The notes under the pieces are model-generated. The model did no database searches. It was not told where the DNA came from and saw only the letters and a program-made list of their open reading frames with translations. Below, piece by piece: positions 14,145 to 18,252 of a stretch of 35,364 bases of DNA (position 1 is its first letter; each line of letters opens with the position of its first letter). Both the position numbers and the translations under genes were made by a program. The DNA is from an uncultured bacterium (GTDB lineage Bacteria; Bacillota_I; Bacilli_A; RF39; UBA660): the NCBI GenBank assembly GCA_900314465.1, contig OMVK01000015.1, forward strand, positions 1-35,364. The letters are read 5' to 3'.

Positions 14145-14525
14145 ATGAATGATTTTGAAATATATGATTTAGTAAAAAAGTTTCCAATCGGAGAACCGGC
14201 AAAAAATAGAGAAGAATTATTAAGCAAAGCTGGAATTATATCTTATTTAGCTCCATATCAAGATGAATTGAGTAACTATGAAAATCAAGATGAACTTGAA
14301 GAAAAAGTTAAAGAATATTTAGGAAGAGTGCTTGAAGTAAGAGAAGACGAAAGAATACCTGAAGTGTATGAAGCTGAAAACATCCTACATTTAAGTAAAG
14401 GTTTCTTACAGGATTATGGTAAAGTTGAATATATAAAAGAAAATGACCCAAATTTTAGTAGGATATATAATATTATTTCTCGTAATTTAGAATTAAACTA
14501 TGAAAAATCTGGTAGAGGAAGGTAA
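14145..14525 (+). CDS. Uncharacterised 126-residue protein
   Basis: I do not recognise this protein. It is soluble, acidic and helical, with no signal peptide, beginning MNDFEIYDLVKKFPIGEPAKNREELL. A charged helix lies near 45-70 (ENQDELEEKVKEYLG) and the end is basic (EKSGRGR). ATG 14145 is chosen because GAGGTG lies eight bases upstream; the in-frame ATG at 14139 is too close. No terminator separates it from the TasA-like gene 63 bases downstream, so it may be co-transcribed with the surface-protein module. That link is an inference from position only. Confidence 0.65.
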   Translation: MNDFEIYDLVKKFPIGEPAKNREELLSKAGIISYLAPYQDELSNYENQDELEEKVKEYLGRVLEVREDERIPEVYEAENILHLSKGFLQDYGKVEYIKENDPNFSRIYNIISRNLELNYEKSGRGR

Positions 14526-14588
14526 TATATTTGTAAAATATTTTAAAAATCATTGACTAATTATTTATAATATAGAGGTGTATGATAT

Positions 14589-15083
14589 ATGAATAAGGAT
14601 GGTAAAAATATTGCGATTGCTTCATTATTAATTTTAGTTTTATTTATGTCAATAGGTTATGCAGCACTTGCACAAACATTAAATTTAAATAGTACAGCAA
14701 CTATTTCAGGAAAATGGAATATTGAAATAACCAATATTACTGCCTCATCTACTACTGGAACAGCAGATGGTGGAACTCCAAGTTTTACAGCATCTCAAGC
14801 AACATTTGATCCAACACTATATAAACCTGGTGACTCTGTAACATATACAATAACTGTTAAAAATATGGGAAACATTGATGCAAAATTCGATAGCATGAAA
14901 CTAACTGAAACAGCTGGTGGTTCTCCTGCAATAATATATACAAATACTGAACCAGGTGCATCATTAACAGCAGGCTCTGAAACTACATTTACAGTAACAG
15001 CAACATATGATTCAAGTTATACAGATATTCCAAGTATTACAACAAAAACTATTACTGGTACAGTAGAATATGTTCAAGCGTAA
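14589..15083 (+). CDS. TasA/camelysin-like secreted protein with a SipW-type signal peptide
   Basis: The 164-residue protein has a signal peptide of the SipW-dependent class: charged start, helix IAIASLLILVLFMSIGYAAL (about 8-27), then AQTLNLNSTATISGKW. The mature part is Thr/Ser-rich and beta-stranded, with a domain (about 60-160) of the kind seen in TasA-like and conserved-repeat surface proteins (YKPGDSVTYTITVKNMGN, then TFTVTATY). It has no Cys and no LPxTG anchor. TasA proteins assemble into extracellular fibres in biofilms (family knowledge). A dedicated signal peptidase is encoded two genes downstream. A strong terminator directly follows, suggesting this product is made in excess over the rest of the module. 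Fibre formation is inferred, not shown. Confidence 0.75.
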   Translation: MNKDGKNIAIASLLILVLFMSIGYAALAQTLNLNSTATISGKWNIEITNITASSTTGTADGGTPSFTASQATFDPTLYKPGDSVTYTITVKNMGNIDAKFDSMKLTETAGGSPAIIYTNTEPGASLTAGSETTFTVTATYDSSYTDIPSITTKTITGTVEYVQA

Positions 15084-15088
15084 TATAT

Positions 15089-15122
15089 AAGCAATAGAAG
15101 GTAATACTTCTATTGCTTTTTT
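15089..15122 (+). terminator. Strong terminator inside the surface-protein module
   Basis: AAGCAATAGAAG (15089-15100) pairs perfectly with the sequence starting CTTCTATTGCTT (15107-15118) around GTAATA, followed by Ts. The next gene has no recognisable promoter between here and its start, so partial read-through probably sets the expression ratio. Confidence 0.85.
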
Positions 15123-15136
15123 ATTGAGGTGTAATG

Positions 15137-16042
15137 ATGAAAAATAAAAAAAGAAAATTTAAAAAGTTTTTTAATAAAAATGGAATATTAATATTTATAG
15201 TATCTGTTGCAACTTTTGTATTATTAATGACGACAGGATATGCAACTCTCAAAACTGATTTATCTCTAAAAAGTGAAGCAAGTATAGTTAAAACACAAAC
15301 AACTACAACTTCTAGTGCAAGTGATGATCAAACAAAAACTTGTGAAACATATATAACATACTCACAAACCACTAGTTGGCAAGAAGGTACTAATTTACAT
15401 TATCAGTTAAATTTAACATTAACTAACAATTCATCAACTGATATCACTAACTGGAGAATTAAATTCTCTGATTCTAATAATTATACTCTTACTAGTTATA
15501 ATGGAACAGTAACTAATTCTAATGATAAGTATTATATTTCTAATCTTAGTTATAATGGAACTATTTCTTCTGGTGGAAACATATCTATTGTAATTGATGT
15601 TGTAACTGCAAGAACAGATATTGATACAATCATGAAAAGTATATATATAGTTGATTGTGGTAGAGCATCTTCAGGAGAAGATAAAACAATTACTTCTGGT
15701 AATGCATCACTTTCAATTGGTCAACTTGAAACACAACTTGATGCTGAAGTCAAAACAACATATGCAGCATATGGCTTTAATCAATATGAGATTAAAATAA
15801 CTAATAATTCGGCATATAAAATAACAAACTGGCGTGGTAATGTATATTTTGGAGATAGTAAGTTACAAGCAATATGGTCTGTAACTCAAACACAAACAAA
15901 TACTAATAATGTATTGATATCAGATAATGGCAATGGTTCAATTGCTATTGGAGGTTCAGTAACACTATATCTACAACTAACAACAAATGATACGTCATAT
16001 GTTCCAGACGTCGTATTTGCCGGAACATATACAACATCTTAG
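15137..16042 (+). CDS. SipW-type surface protein with two CBM2-like domains
   Basis: The protein (301 residues from ATG 15137; ATG 15134 is closer to GAGGTG and less likely) has a very basic start, a helix (about 18-35) ending TTGYATLKTDLSLKSEASI, which is a SipW-class signal, a Thr/Ser linker and two tandem beta domains (about 70-175 and 185-300). The first resembles family 2 carbohydrate-binding modules: SSTDITNWRIKF near 95 and YYISNLSYNGTISSGGNISI near 128, with Cys residues at both ends (CETY and VDCG), like the CBM2 disulfide. The second repeats ITNWRGNVYFG and GNGSIAIGGSVTLYL without the Cys pair. It may bind a polysaccharide of the matrix or the wall. It shares its operon with a signal peptidase. 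Confidence 0.72.
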   Translation: MKNKKRKFKKFFNKNGILIFIVSVATFVLLMTTGYATLKTDLSLKSEASIVKTQTTTTSSASDDQTKTCETYITYSQTTSWQEGTNLHYQLNLTLTNNSSTDITNWRIKFSDSNNYTLTSYNGTVTNSNDKYYISNLSYNGTISSGGNISIVIDVVTARTDIDTIMKSIYIVDCGRASSGEDKTITSGNASLSIGQLETQLDAEVKTTYAAYGFNQYEIKITNNSAYKITNWRGNVYFGDSKLQAIWSVTQTQTNTNNVLISDNGNGSIAIGGSVTLYLQLTTNDTSYVPDVVFAGTYTTS

Positions 16043-16052
16043 GAGATTAACT

Positions 16053-17195
16053 ATGAAAAAAATAAATAATATTGAAATAATATTACTAACTTTAATATGT
16101 TTTATTATAAGTATTATTATACAAATTAATTATAATGATTTATTTATTAAAATAATTAATCCCATATTCTGGCTAATAATAGGAATAATATATTATATTA
16201 AAAGTAAAAAAGTATATTTTAGGTATAACAATTATAAATTATATAAAAATAAATTAATAATTTGGATGATATTATATATATTAATAATATTTGATATAGG
16301 TTTTTTTACTGGATATGGTAAGAATCCCTATAATACAAGTATAATTGGTATATTGAATAATATTATACAAATAATAATACCTATTGTAGGAATAGAAATA
16401 TTAAGATCATATTTTATTAATAAAAATAAGAATAATAAATTAATAAATATTATATTCATTATATTAATATTTATGATTGAAGCTAATATTCCATATTATA
16501 TAAATAATATTAATGATAGAGAATTAATATTTAAGTATTTTTGTTCTACAACTGCACCATTAATATTTACAAGCTTTATAAGTTCATATTTTGTCTTATT
16601 AGGTTCTTATAAATTATCATTAATATATAGACTAATAAGTGAACTTATATTTATATTATTACCTATAATACCTAATATAGATTGGTTTGTTAAAGGTACA
16701 TCATCTATTATATTTATATCAATATTATATATTGTATATAAGTATAAATATGTAAAATTAGACGAAAATGAAGAAAGAATAAATAGAAGTAATAATAAAG
16801 TTATTTATCCATTAACTATTACAGCATGTATATTATTAGTTTTATTTATGTTAGGCGTATTTAAATATGAACCTATAGCTATTGTATCTAATAGTATGGT
16901 TCCTGTATATTCAAGAGGTGATATTGTAATATACGAAAAGTTTAGTGAAGAAGAATTGAAAAAGCTTAAAGAAGGTAATATTATTATTTATAAAGTAGGA
17001 GATAAGCTTGTTGCTCATCGAATTAAAAAAGTTATTATGGAAGATGGAAGAATTAAATATTTAACTAAAGGAGATAATAATCAATCAGAAGATGGTATAC
17101 ATGTTGATGTAAGTGATATCAAAGGTGTTTATGTTGGCTCAATTAAATATTTAGGTTATCCAACAGTAATATTAAATGAATTTTTTGCTAAGTAA
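16053..17195 (+). CDS. SipW-type (ER-like) signal peptidase I with multi-pass N-terminal region
   Basis: Residues from about 255 form the peptidase: a helix, then AIVSNSMVPVYSRGDIVIY with nucleophile Ser281, VAHRI with His322 as base instead of the bacterial Lys, and LTKGDNNQSEDG near 340. The Ser-His pair defines the SipW/ER-type class (S26B), which processes TasA-like proteins. The first 250 residues add about eight very hydrophobic helices, far more than the one or two helices of Bacillus SipW. I do not recognise that region; it could be a membrane platform or sensor. ATG 16053 follows AGGAG at 16041-16045, overlapping the previous stop. The frame is open upstream into the previous gene but that extension is not supported. 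A 15-base gap to the next gene indicates one operon. Confidence 0.85.
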   Translation: MKKINNIEIILLTLICFIISIIIQINYNDLFIKIINPIFWLIIGIIYYIKSKKVYFRYNNYKLYKNKLIIWMILYILIIFDIGFFTGYGKNPYNTSIIGILNNIIQIIIPIVGIEILRSYFINKNKNNKLINIIFIILIFMIEANIPYYINNINDRELIFKYFCSTTAPLIFTSFISSYFVLLGSYKLSLIYRLISELIFILLPIIPNIDWFVKGTSSIIFISILYIVYKYKYVKLDENEERINRSNNKVIYPLTITACILLVLFMLGVFKYEPIAIVSNSMVPVYSRGDIVIYEKFSEEELKKLKEGNIIIYKVGDKLVAHRIKKVIMEDGRIKYLTKGDNNQSEDGIHVDVSDIKGVYVGSIKYLGYPTVILNEFFAK

Positions 17196-17210
17196 TAGAA
17201 AGAGGTTTAT

Positions 17211-18224
17211 ATGAAAATTAATAAAAAAATATCAATTATTAGTATATTATTAATAATAATTGGTATTGCATTAATAGTAAGTACAGTTAGTACAACTGAA
17301 GGAGGAATAGATTCTTTTAATTATAATATTAAAAGAAATGTATATTCTAGTGTAGAACTATTACCTAATAATTTTTATGACAATAATAATGTAATTAGTT
17401 CTTCATATCCTGCTAATTTAATAAATAAGATAAATTTAAATTATGTATATAATTATAGTGGTAATCTTTCTTCTAATTATTCTTATAGTTATAATATTAA
17501 AGCTTATTTGGTAGGTAATTATAATGATTCAGAAGTATGGAGAAAAGAATATGATTTATTACCTACTACAGAAATAAAAAAAGGTAAGAGTATAAATATA
17601 AATGATAATATATCTATAGATTATCAAATATATAAGAATTTAGTTAATCAATATAATTATGACACTAATATAACTACTGATTCTTATTTATTAGTACAAA
17701 TGAATATTAATGGTAGTAATATAATAGATAGTAGTAGTGAAAACGATGATAATAATGTTATAAATGATAAAATAGAAGTTAAGATACCTATAAATAATTA
17801 TGTTACTTCTGTAGAAAATACTTATGATAAGAGTTCAACAGGTACTTATGCTTTAAACAATAAAATTGATAATAATAGATTAATAATTATTGTTACAGGT
17901 TCAGTAAGTATATTAGTTGCTATATTATTAATATTATATAGTTTAAGAAATCAAGAATTAACTCAAGTAGAAAAATATAAGAGAAATGTAAATCAAATAG
18001 AAAAAGATTATTCAGATTTAATTGTTGTTGTAACTAATGAACCTGATGTATTAACACTTAAAAAAATGTATATTGAAAAAATAGAAGATATGATTGATAT
18101 AGCAGATCAAAATAAAGTAAATATAATTCAATATGAAGTTATAAAAAATAGAAAAACTAATTTATATGCAATTATTGGTAAATATGTTTATATTTATACA
18201 ATTACAAGTAAAGATATTAAATAA
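17211..18224 (+). CDS. DUF5305-like membrane protein
   Basis: The 337-residue protein has one N-terminal helix (about 7-26), a long extracellular part (about 30-215) that is rich in Tyr, Asn and Ser, a second helix (about 221-243), and a cytoplasmic tail of about 90 residues with a charged coiled-coil-like start and a mixed alpha/beta end (LIVVVTNEPDVLTLKKMYIEK as landmark). This layout and the extracellular sequence fit DUF5305, which is often encoded beside SipW-type peptidases in archaea and bacteria (family knowledge, recalled). Its function is not known. I infer a role in handling or anchoring the secreted proteins of this module, for example sensing their assembly across the membrane. 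Confidence 0.65.
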   Translation: MKINKKISIISILLIIIGIALIVSTVSTTEGGIDSFNYNIKRNVYSSVELLPNNFYDNNNVISSSYPANLINKINLNYVYNYSGNLSSNYSYSYNIKAYLVGNYNDSEVWRKEYDLLPTTEIKKGKSININDNISIDYQIYKNLVNQYNYDTNITTDSYLLVQMNINGSNIIDSSSENDDNNVINDKIEVKIPINNYVTSVENTYDKSSTGTYALNNKIDNNRLIIIVTGSVSILVAILLILYSLRNQELTQVEKYKRNVNQIEKDYSDLIVVVTNEPDVLTLKKMYIEKIEDMIDIADQNKVNIIQYEVIKNRKTNLYAIIGKYVYIYTITSKDIK

Positions 18225-18252
18225 GAGATGTTAAATACATCTTTTATTTTTT
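18223..18252 (+). terminator. Terminator of the surface-protein module
   Basis: AAGAGATGT (18223-18231) pairs with ACATCTTTT (18237-18245, one G-T pair) around TAAAT, followed by a T-rich run. The left arm starts in the stop codon. Confidence 0.7.

Follow-up and report, generated by a model that had tools for sequence, protein, structure and literature searches.

Four genes on the plus strand between positions 14589 and 18224 of the window (the whole stretch of 35,364 nucleotides that was analysed) make up a module, three products of which, a small secreted protein (T), a long signal peptidase and a DUF5305 protein, are a real conserved unit found across genomes. From its sequences, the gene set is probably a fibre-type module of the SipW/TasA kind, in which a partner with CBM2 domains would represent a new variation. 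By analogy with characterized filaments, the reading that we favour, with a probability of roughly 0.5, is that the module would produce a donor-strand fibre with the CBM2 protein as an adhesin and end subunit, processed and anchored by the peptidase–DUF5305 pair. The findings indicate that uncultured gut Bacilli may widely share a fibre system, suggest a route to an exchangeable glycan-binding end on a Gram-positive donor-strand fibre and place DUF5305, an unstudied family, in a specific setting, as the constant partner of a SipW-type peptidase.

The first gene (14589..15083) encodes T, a small secreted, TasA-like beta-sandwich protein of 164 aa that is proposed to be the major fibre subunit, and the second (15137..16042) encodes a secreted protein of 301 aa with two CBM_2 domains (302 aa if an alternative ATG at 15134 is used), the proposed filament-end adhesin. 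They are followed by the gene for a SipW-type signal peptidase of 380 aa (16053..17195), in which an N-terminal multi-TM region is joined to an S26 Ser/His domain, and by that for a DUF5305 protein of 337 aa (17211..18224), a proposed membrane anchor or assembly partner. The open reading frames lie in this order on one strand with intergenic gaps of about 50, 10 and 15 nt in the list of open reading frames, as the original prediction described, and the SipW-type signal peptides that it assigned to the two secreted proteins were recovered as a single N-terminal hydrophobic segment in each, ending in GYAA and GYAT. The small gene at 14145, which had been suggested as a possible member, is to be left out: it is absent from the module of the closest relative (L105), and its clear homologues are found only in two genomes of the same genus, where they follow a dtd-like gene and lie away from such modules. 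In our own reading of the open reading frames, the module lies behind secA in the window and behind pheS–pheT in L105, and others adjoin other housekeeping genes; these differing genomic surroundings argue that the genes have moved, or been kept, together. The early description of the module as self-contained is apt for the gene set, but the same genome has two more DUF5305 loci that lack the long peptidase. At these loci (L013:7310-9692 on G000:C28 and L014:6782-8316 on G000:C45), DUF5305 is paired with TasA-like small secreted proteins, with no adjoining peptidase. A single long peptidase was found in this genome (a draft assembly, 94% complete) and it may therefore serve all three DUF5305 loci.

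The conservation of the unit is seen in two sets of loci. DUF5305 is present in 103 of the 241 genomes of the order, and a long peptidase lies just upstream in 52 of the 60 DUF5305 loci, from the same family, that were read out. A peptidase search of named genomes gave 80 loci, 76 of them with a full peptidase; T is found upstream in 73/76, DUF5305 downstream in 71/76 and both in 68/76. This second set was drawn by peptidase similarity, so that the presence of the peptidase in it is no evidence and the DUF5305-based set provides the independent count; the two overlap partly, as seen from contigs with identical proteins and equal lengths (L069=L117, L085=L108, L093=L126, L099=L107, L075=L141 and L052=L147). 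The 80 loci come mostly from gut metagenome genomes (rumen and deer records and the Lapin series, which we take to be rabbit), and their depositors' labels are uncultured Bacilli, Clostridia, Erysipelotrichaceae, Bacillales and Mycoplasmatota. The gene-set conservation anticipated from the window is thus borne out for T, the peptidase and DUF5305; co-occurrence with tandem CBM2-like proteins holds in that these occupy a constant slot upstream of the peptidase, but in a minority of loci only. Since most loci are without such a partner, the core does not appear to need it. Beyond this family, a signal peptidase, DUF5305 and small secreted proteins are also paired in L230 and L231. In L230, the peptidase adjoins DUF5305 and small secreted proteins lie nearby, as in the module, whereas the peptidase domain is not preceded by a long N-terminal TM region. 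L230 (G316:C49) belongs to a genome assigned to the same class; the genes there are high in GC and look haloarchaeal, and the contig may be a contamination of that MAG or the result of transfer.

The peptidase scores 78.9 bits with TIGR02228 (cut-off 51.85) and its catalytic Ser281, His322 and Asp341 are invariant across 12 relatives, in agreement with the Ser281/His322 signal peptidase originally called. With NF046067, the equivalog model for SipW of Bacillus, it reaches 58.5 bits against a cut-off of 190; judged by these models, the enzyme is of SipW type, yet it is not SipW as NF046067 defines it. About six hydrophobic segments by hydropathy precede the segment that leads into its catalytic domain. 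The downstream protein matches DUF5305 (PF17231) with 46.7 bits against a gathering score of 29, and its model (pLDDT 92) has a TM helix (2-30), an extracellular beta domain, a second TM helix (221-246) and a small cytoplasmic domain, just as expected for the two-helix DUF5305-like protein that had been recognized. A fold search with it gave weak LEA-14/TMEM106B-like matches only, and no paper naming DUF5305 was found in a literature search, the family being one without described function.

The relationship of T to TasA is less straightforward. The T protein of the window has no match above the curated cut-offs of PF12389 and NF046066 (TasA/camelysin) in Pfam and NCBIfam; among its relatives, PF12389 is matched weakly by 14/62 (best E 0.00019) and NF046066 by two. 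A profile alignment of T against the PDB found no TasA. When T was compared with camelysin profiles by hhalign with signal peptides included, the probability was 96%, which is not taken as proof of TasA membership since the match is mostly signal peptide: in a control with signal peptides removed, the probability drops to 28% over a short stretch only. The AF2 model of T is a confident beta-sandwich (pLDDT 95.3) with its first 19 residues unpaired. A Foldseek search with this model against the PDB gave no match under E 0.001, and the top ranks were generic beta-sandwiches; the TasA fibre 8aur (query TM-score 0.45, probability 0.94, E 0.082) and the archaeal thread 7pnb (0.44) had the highest query TM-scores among the 50 matches listed. 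Comparison of predicted folds, one of the checks initially suggested, thus yields a weak resemblance to a TasA fibre and an archaeal thread, and the assignment of T to the TasA family itself (no Pfam M73 match, fold match at E 0.08) remains tentative. By analogy, T probably works like TasA.

Directly after the signal peptide, a motif, GY(A/S)xLxTxLxIxGxAxI, is present in 83 T proteins and, less strictly, in 15 CBM2-like proteins. In the window, this stretch of T (ALAQTLNLNSTATISGKWN; 14664..14720, plus strand), the first residues past the likely signal-peptide end and a coil in the AF2 model, is proposed to be the donor strand, and the donor strand of TasA lies just after the signal peptide (PMC9674648). 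TapA has a complete fold, occurs only at the filament end and has an N-terminal strand in common with TasA (PMC10151520), and it is by analogy with this shared strand that T is read as the shaft and the CBM2 protein as the end subunit. After export of T by Sec, the dedicated peptidase (16053) would process it, and the N-terminal strand freed in this way would insert into the following T subunit to build the polymer. The same peptidase would process the CBM2 protein, whose N-terminal strand is similar; since its CBM2 domains look complete, it could act as a strand donor but not as an acceptor, which would place it at one filament end, in the position of TapA, as a glycan-binding adhesin. DUF5305 might anchor the fibre base or present subunits. 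The idea that a CBM2 protein replaces the fibre accessory protein, put forward in the original prediction, agrees with what is published on TapA (PMC10151520) and with the N-terminal motif that the proteins have in common. Alternatively, the shared motif could serve peptidase recognition and not assembly.

Several large adhesin-like proteins encoded at these loci also show the motif (the first ~15 residues after the signal peptide); they range from ~460 to 2330 aa, and some have Big_2, fn3, Listeria-Bacteroides or glycine-rich domains. Large secreted proteins of ~800-2230 aa with the motif lie beside modules at L045:5068-8607, L070:300-6989, L090:7162-9570 and L098:4404-6800 and may be exchangeable end adhesins. 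Within a TasA-type fibre, the CBM2 protein might instead be a cell-proximal initiator or anchor bound to the cell's own wall or exopolysaccharide, and not an outward adhesin; CBM2 ligands can include non-cellulose polysaccharides, which counts in favour of this possibility. The arguments for a TapA-like end position apply to it equally, and a role at the start of the filament is assumed for TapA (PMC9674648, PMC10151520). However, the sharing of the motif in related modules by adhesin-like proteins with Big_2, fn3 and glycine-rich domains fits adhesins better, and we regard a cell-proximal anchor as unlikely. A different scenario is that no polymer is formed and that the peptidase releases or matures a few small membrane- or wall-bound proteins, T and the CBM2 proteins being monomeric adhesins. 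This would be in line with a T sequence that stays under the cut-offs of the TasA models and with the weak fold matches, but it seems rather improbable in view of the constant T–peptidase–DUF5305 unit, the motif behind the cleavage site and the known requirement of TasA, BsaA and CalY filaments for SipW (PMC7395162, PMC13082335).

The identification of tandem CBM2-like domains in the second protein proved solid: CBM_2 (PF00553) is matched with 61.5 bits (gathering score 24; E 1.1e-16) in two stretches, located at 15353-15598 and 15773-16006 by the genome search, and the nearest solved relatives in alignment are the CBM2 domains of a chitinase, endoglucanase D (EngD) and Cex. The terminal disulfide pair, Cys69/Cys174, is present. 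Of the order's 241 genomes, only 3 have CBM_2 above the cut-off, and in each the match is to the protein encoded immediately before the long peptidase of a module, a placement that is beyond chance since every genome that passes does so inside such a module. On the binding face, Trp81 and an aromatic residue (Y/W) at position 139 are kept in 5/5 clear CBM2 members aligned, as is Trp232 in domain 2, and the third aromatic, at position 121, is variable (Y/A/Q/W). That the CBM2 domains of a TasA-type fibre are a purely structural beta-sandwich from which glycan binding has gone would suit the variation at position 121 and the strong divergence of the partners in L109 and L123, but the aromatic residues kept in both domains count against it, and we regard it as quite improbable.

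Clear CBM2 partners, of ~295-320 aa, are found in L105, L106 and L119, longer ones with CBM2 plus Big_2 repeats in L117 and L127, and more diverged ones in L108, L109, L112, L123, L126, L170 and others; CBM_2 is matched in Pfam at E 0.01 or better by 10 of 14 partner proteins. Several of the diverged partners may, from their sequences, have lost glycan binding. In a quick peptidase tree, the root of which was not inferred, loci with a clear CBM2 partner are placed close to the base of a single large clade, and nine changes are needed to account for presence or absence of the partner, which makes an old CBM2 partner with repeated loss plausible. In two related genomes (L133:1857-2751 and L179:4811-5705), the gene for a diverged CBM2-like partner is broken at the same place into two open reading frames that overlap, which suggests either a frameshift common to both or a site of frameshifting. 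A more speculative extension of the donor-strand reading, which we consider possible, is that DUF5305 and the multi-TM peptidase form a new assembly platform, that the CBM2 tip holds these tiny-genome gut Bacilli on plant fibre, or on some other polysaccharide, in the gut of herbivores and that related modules exchange the CBM2 tip for other adhesins.

The set had been described as ended by one terminator, which does not hold: there are two hairpins and the stronger is internal. The strongest terminator-like hairpin followed by a run of thymines lies in the interval between the T and CBM2 genes (15089..15118, plus strand; 15080-15130 folds at -18.8 kcal/mol), whereas the one at the end of the set, also followed by a run of thymines (18223..18247, plus strand; -9.3 kcal/mol), is weaker and below the threshold of the hairpin scan. 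In C. perfringens sipW-bsaA, a terminator with read-through follows the major subunit gene (PMC7395162), and by likeness to that system the internal hairpin is proposed to be a partial terminator that would raise T over the rest and make it the most abundant product. Equivalents were found by the scan in 5 of 82 T genes of other loci, including the CBM2-type L105, L117 and L119; at this frequency, a hairpin after T is not retained as a general conserved feature.

Compared with known systems, the module most resembles B. subtilis tapA-sipW-tasA in having a small secreted beta-sandwich subunit, another secreted protein whose N-terminal strand is similar and a dedicated Ser/His signal peptidase in one operon (PMC9674648, PMC10151520). 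It differs in that T is under the PF12389/TasA cut-offs, tandem CBM2 domains replace the Ig domain of TapA, the peptidase has a long multi-TM N-terminus, DUF5305 is added and the gene order is different. The sipW-bsaABCRSD locus of C. perfringens likewise has a SipW-dependent filament protein and a terminator that follows the gene of its major subunit, in an anaerobic member of the Bacillota (PMC7395162), whereas the BsaA model TIGR04090 gives 15.9 bits here (cut-off 60), no two-component genes adjoin the window set and no CBM2 has been reported for sipW-bsaABCRSD. In B. cereus, sipW-tasA/calY with CapP is alike in combining structural proteins and an assembly factor that are all SipW-processed (PMC13082335), but CapP has a DUF4047 domain, for which no protein of the module has a match in Pfam. 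The archaeal thread (Saci_0406) and bundling pili are similar small beta-sandwich donor-strand filaments (PMC9715654), the thread being among the best TM-scores of T, with no CBM2 reported.

Other loci in the genome of the window touch on the same families. At L186:1483-2163 and L218, both on G000:C46, a member of the camelysin family that exceeds the PF12389 cut-off shares its contig with a sortase; a sortase was considered as fibre anchor for the present module and discarded, the genome having sortases and none being at this locus. Short SipW-type peptidases occur with TasA-like proteins bearing ATFAYF/STLAYF at L010:2811-6283 (G000:C21) and L011:7438-9628 (G000:C20), and the one on G000:C21 adjoins a two-component system.
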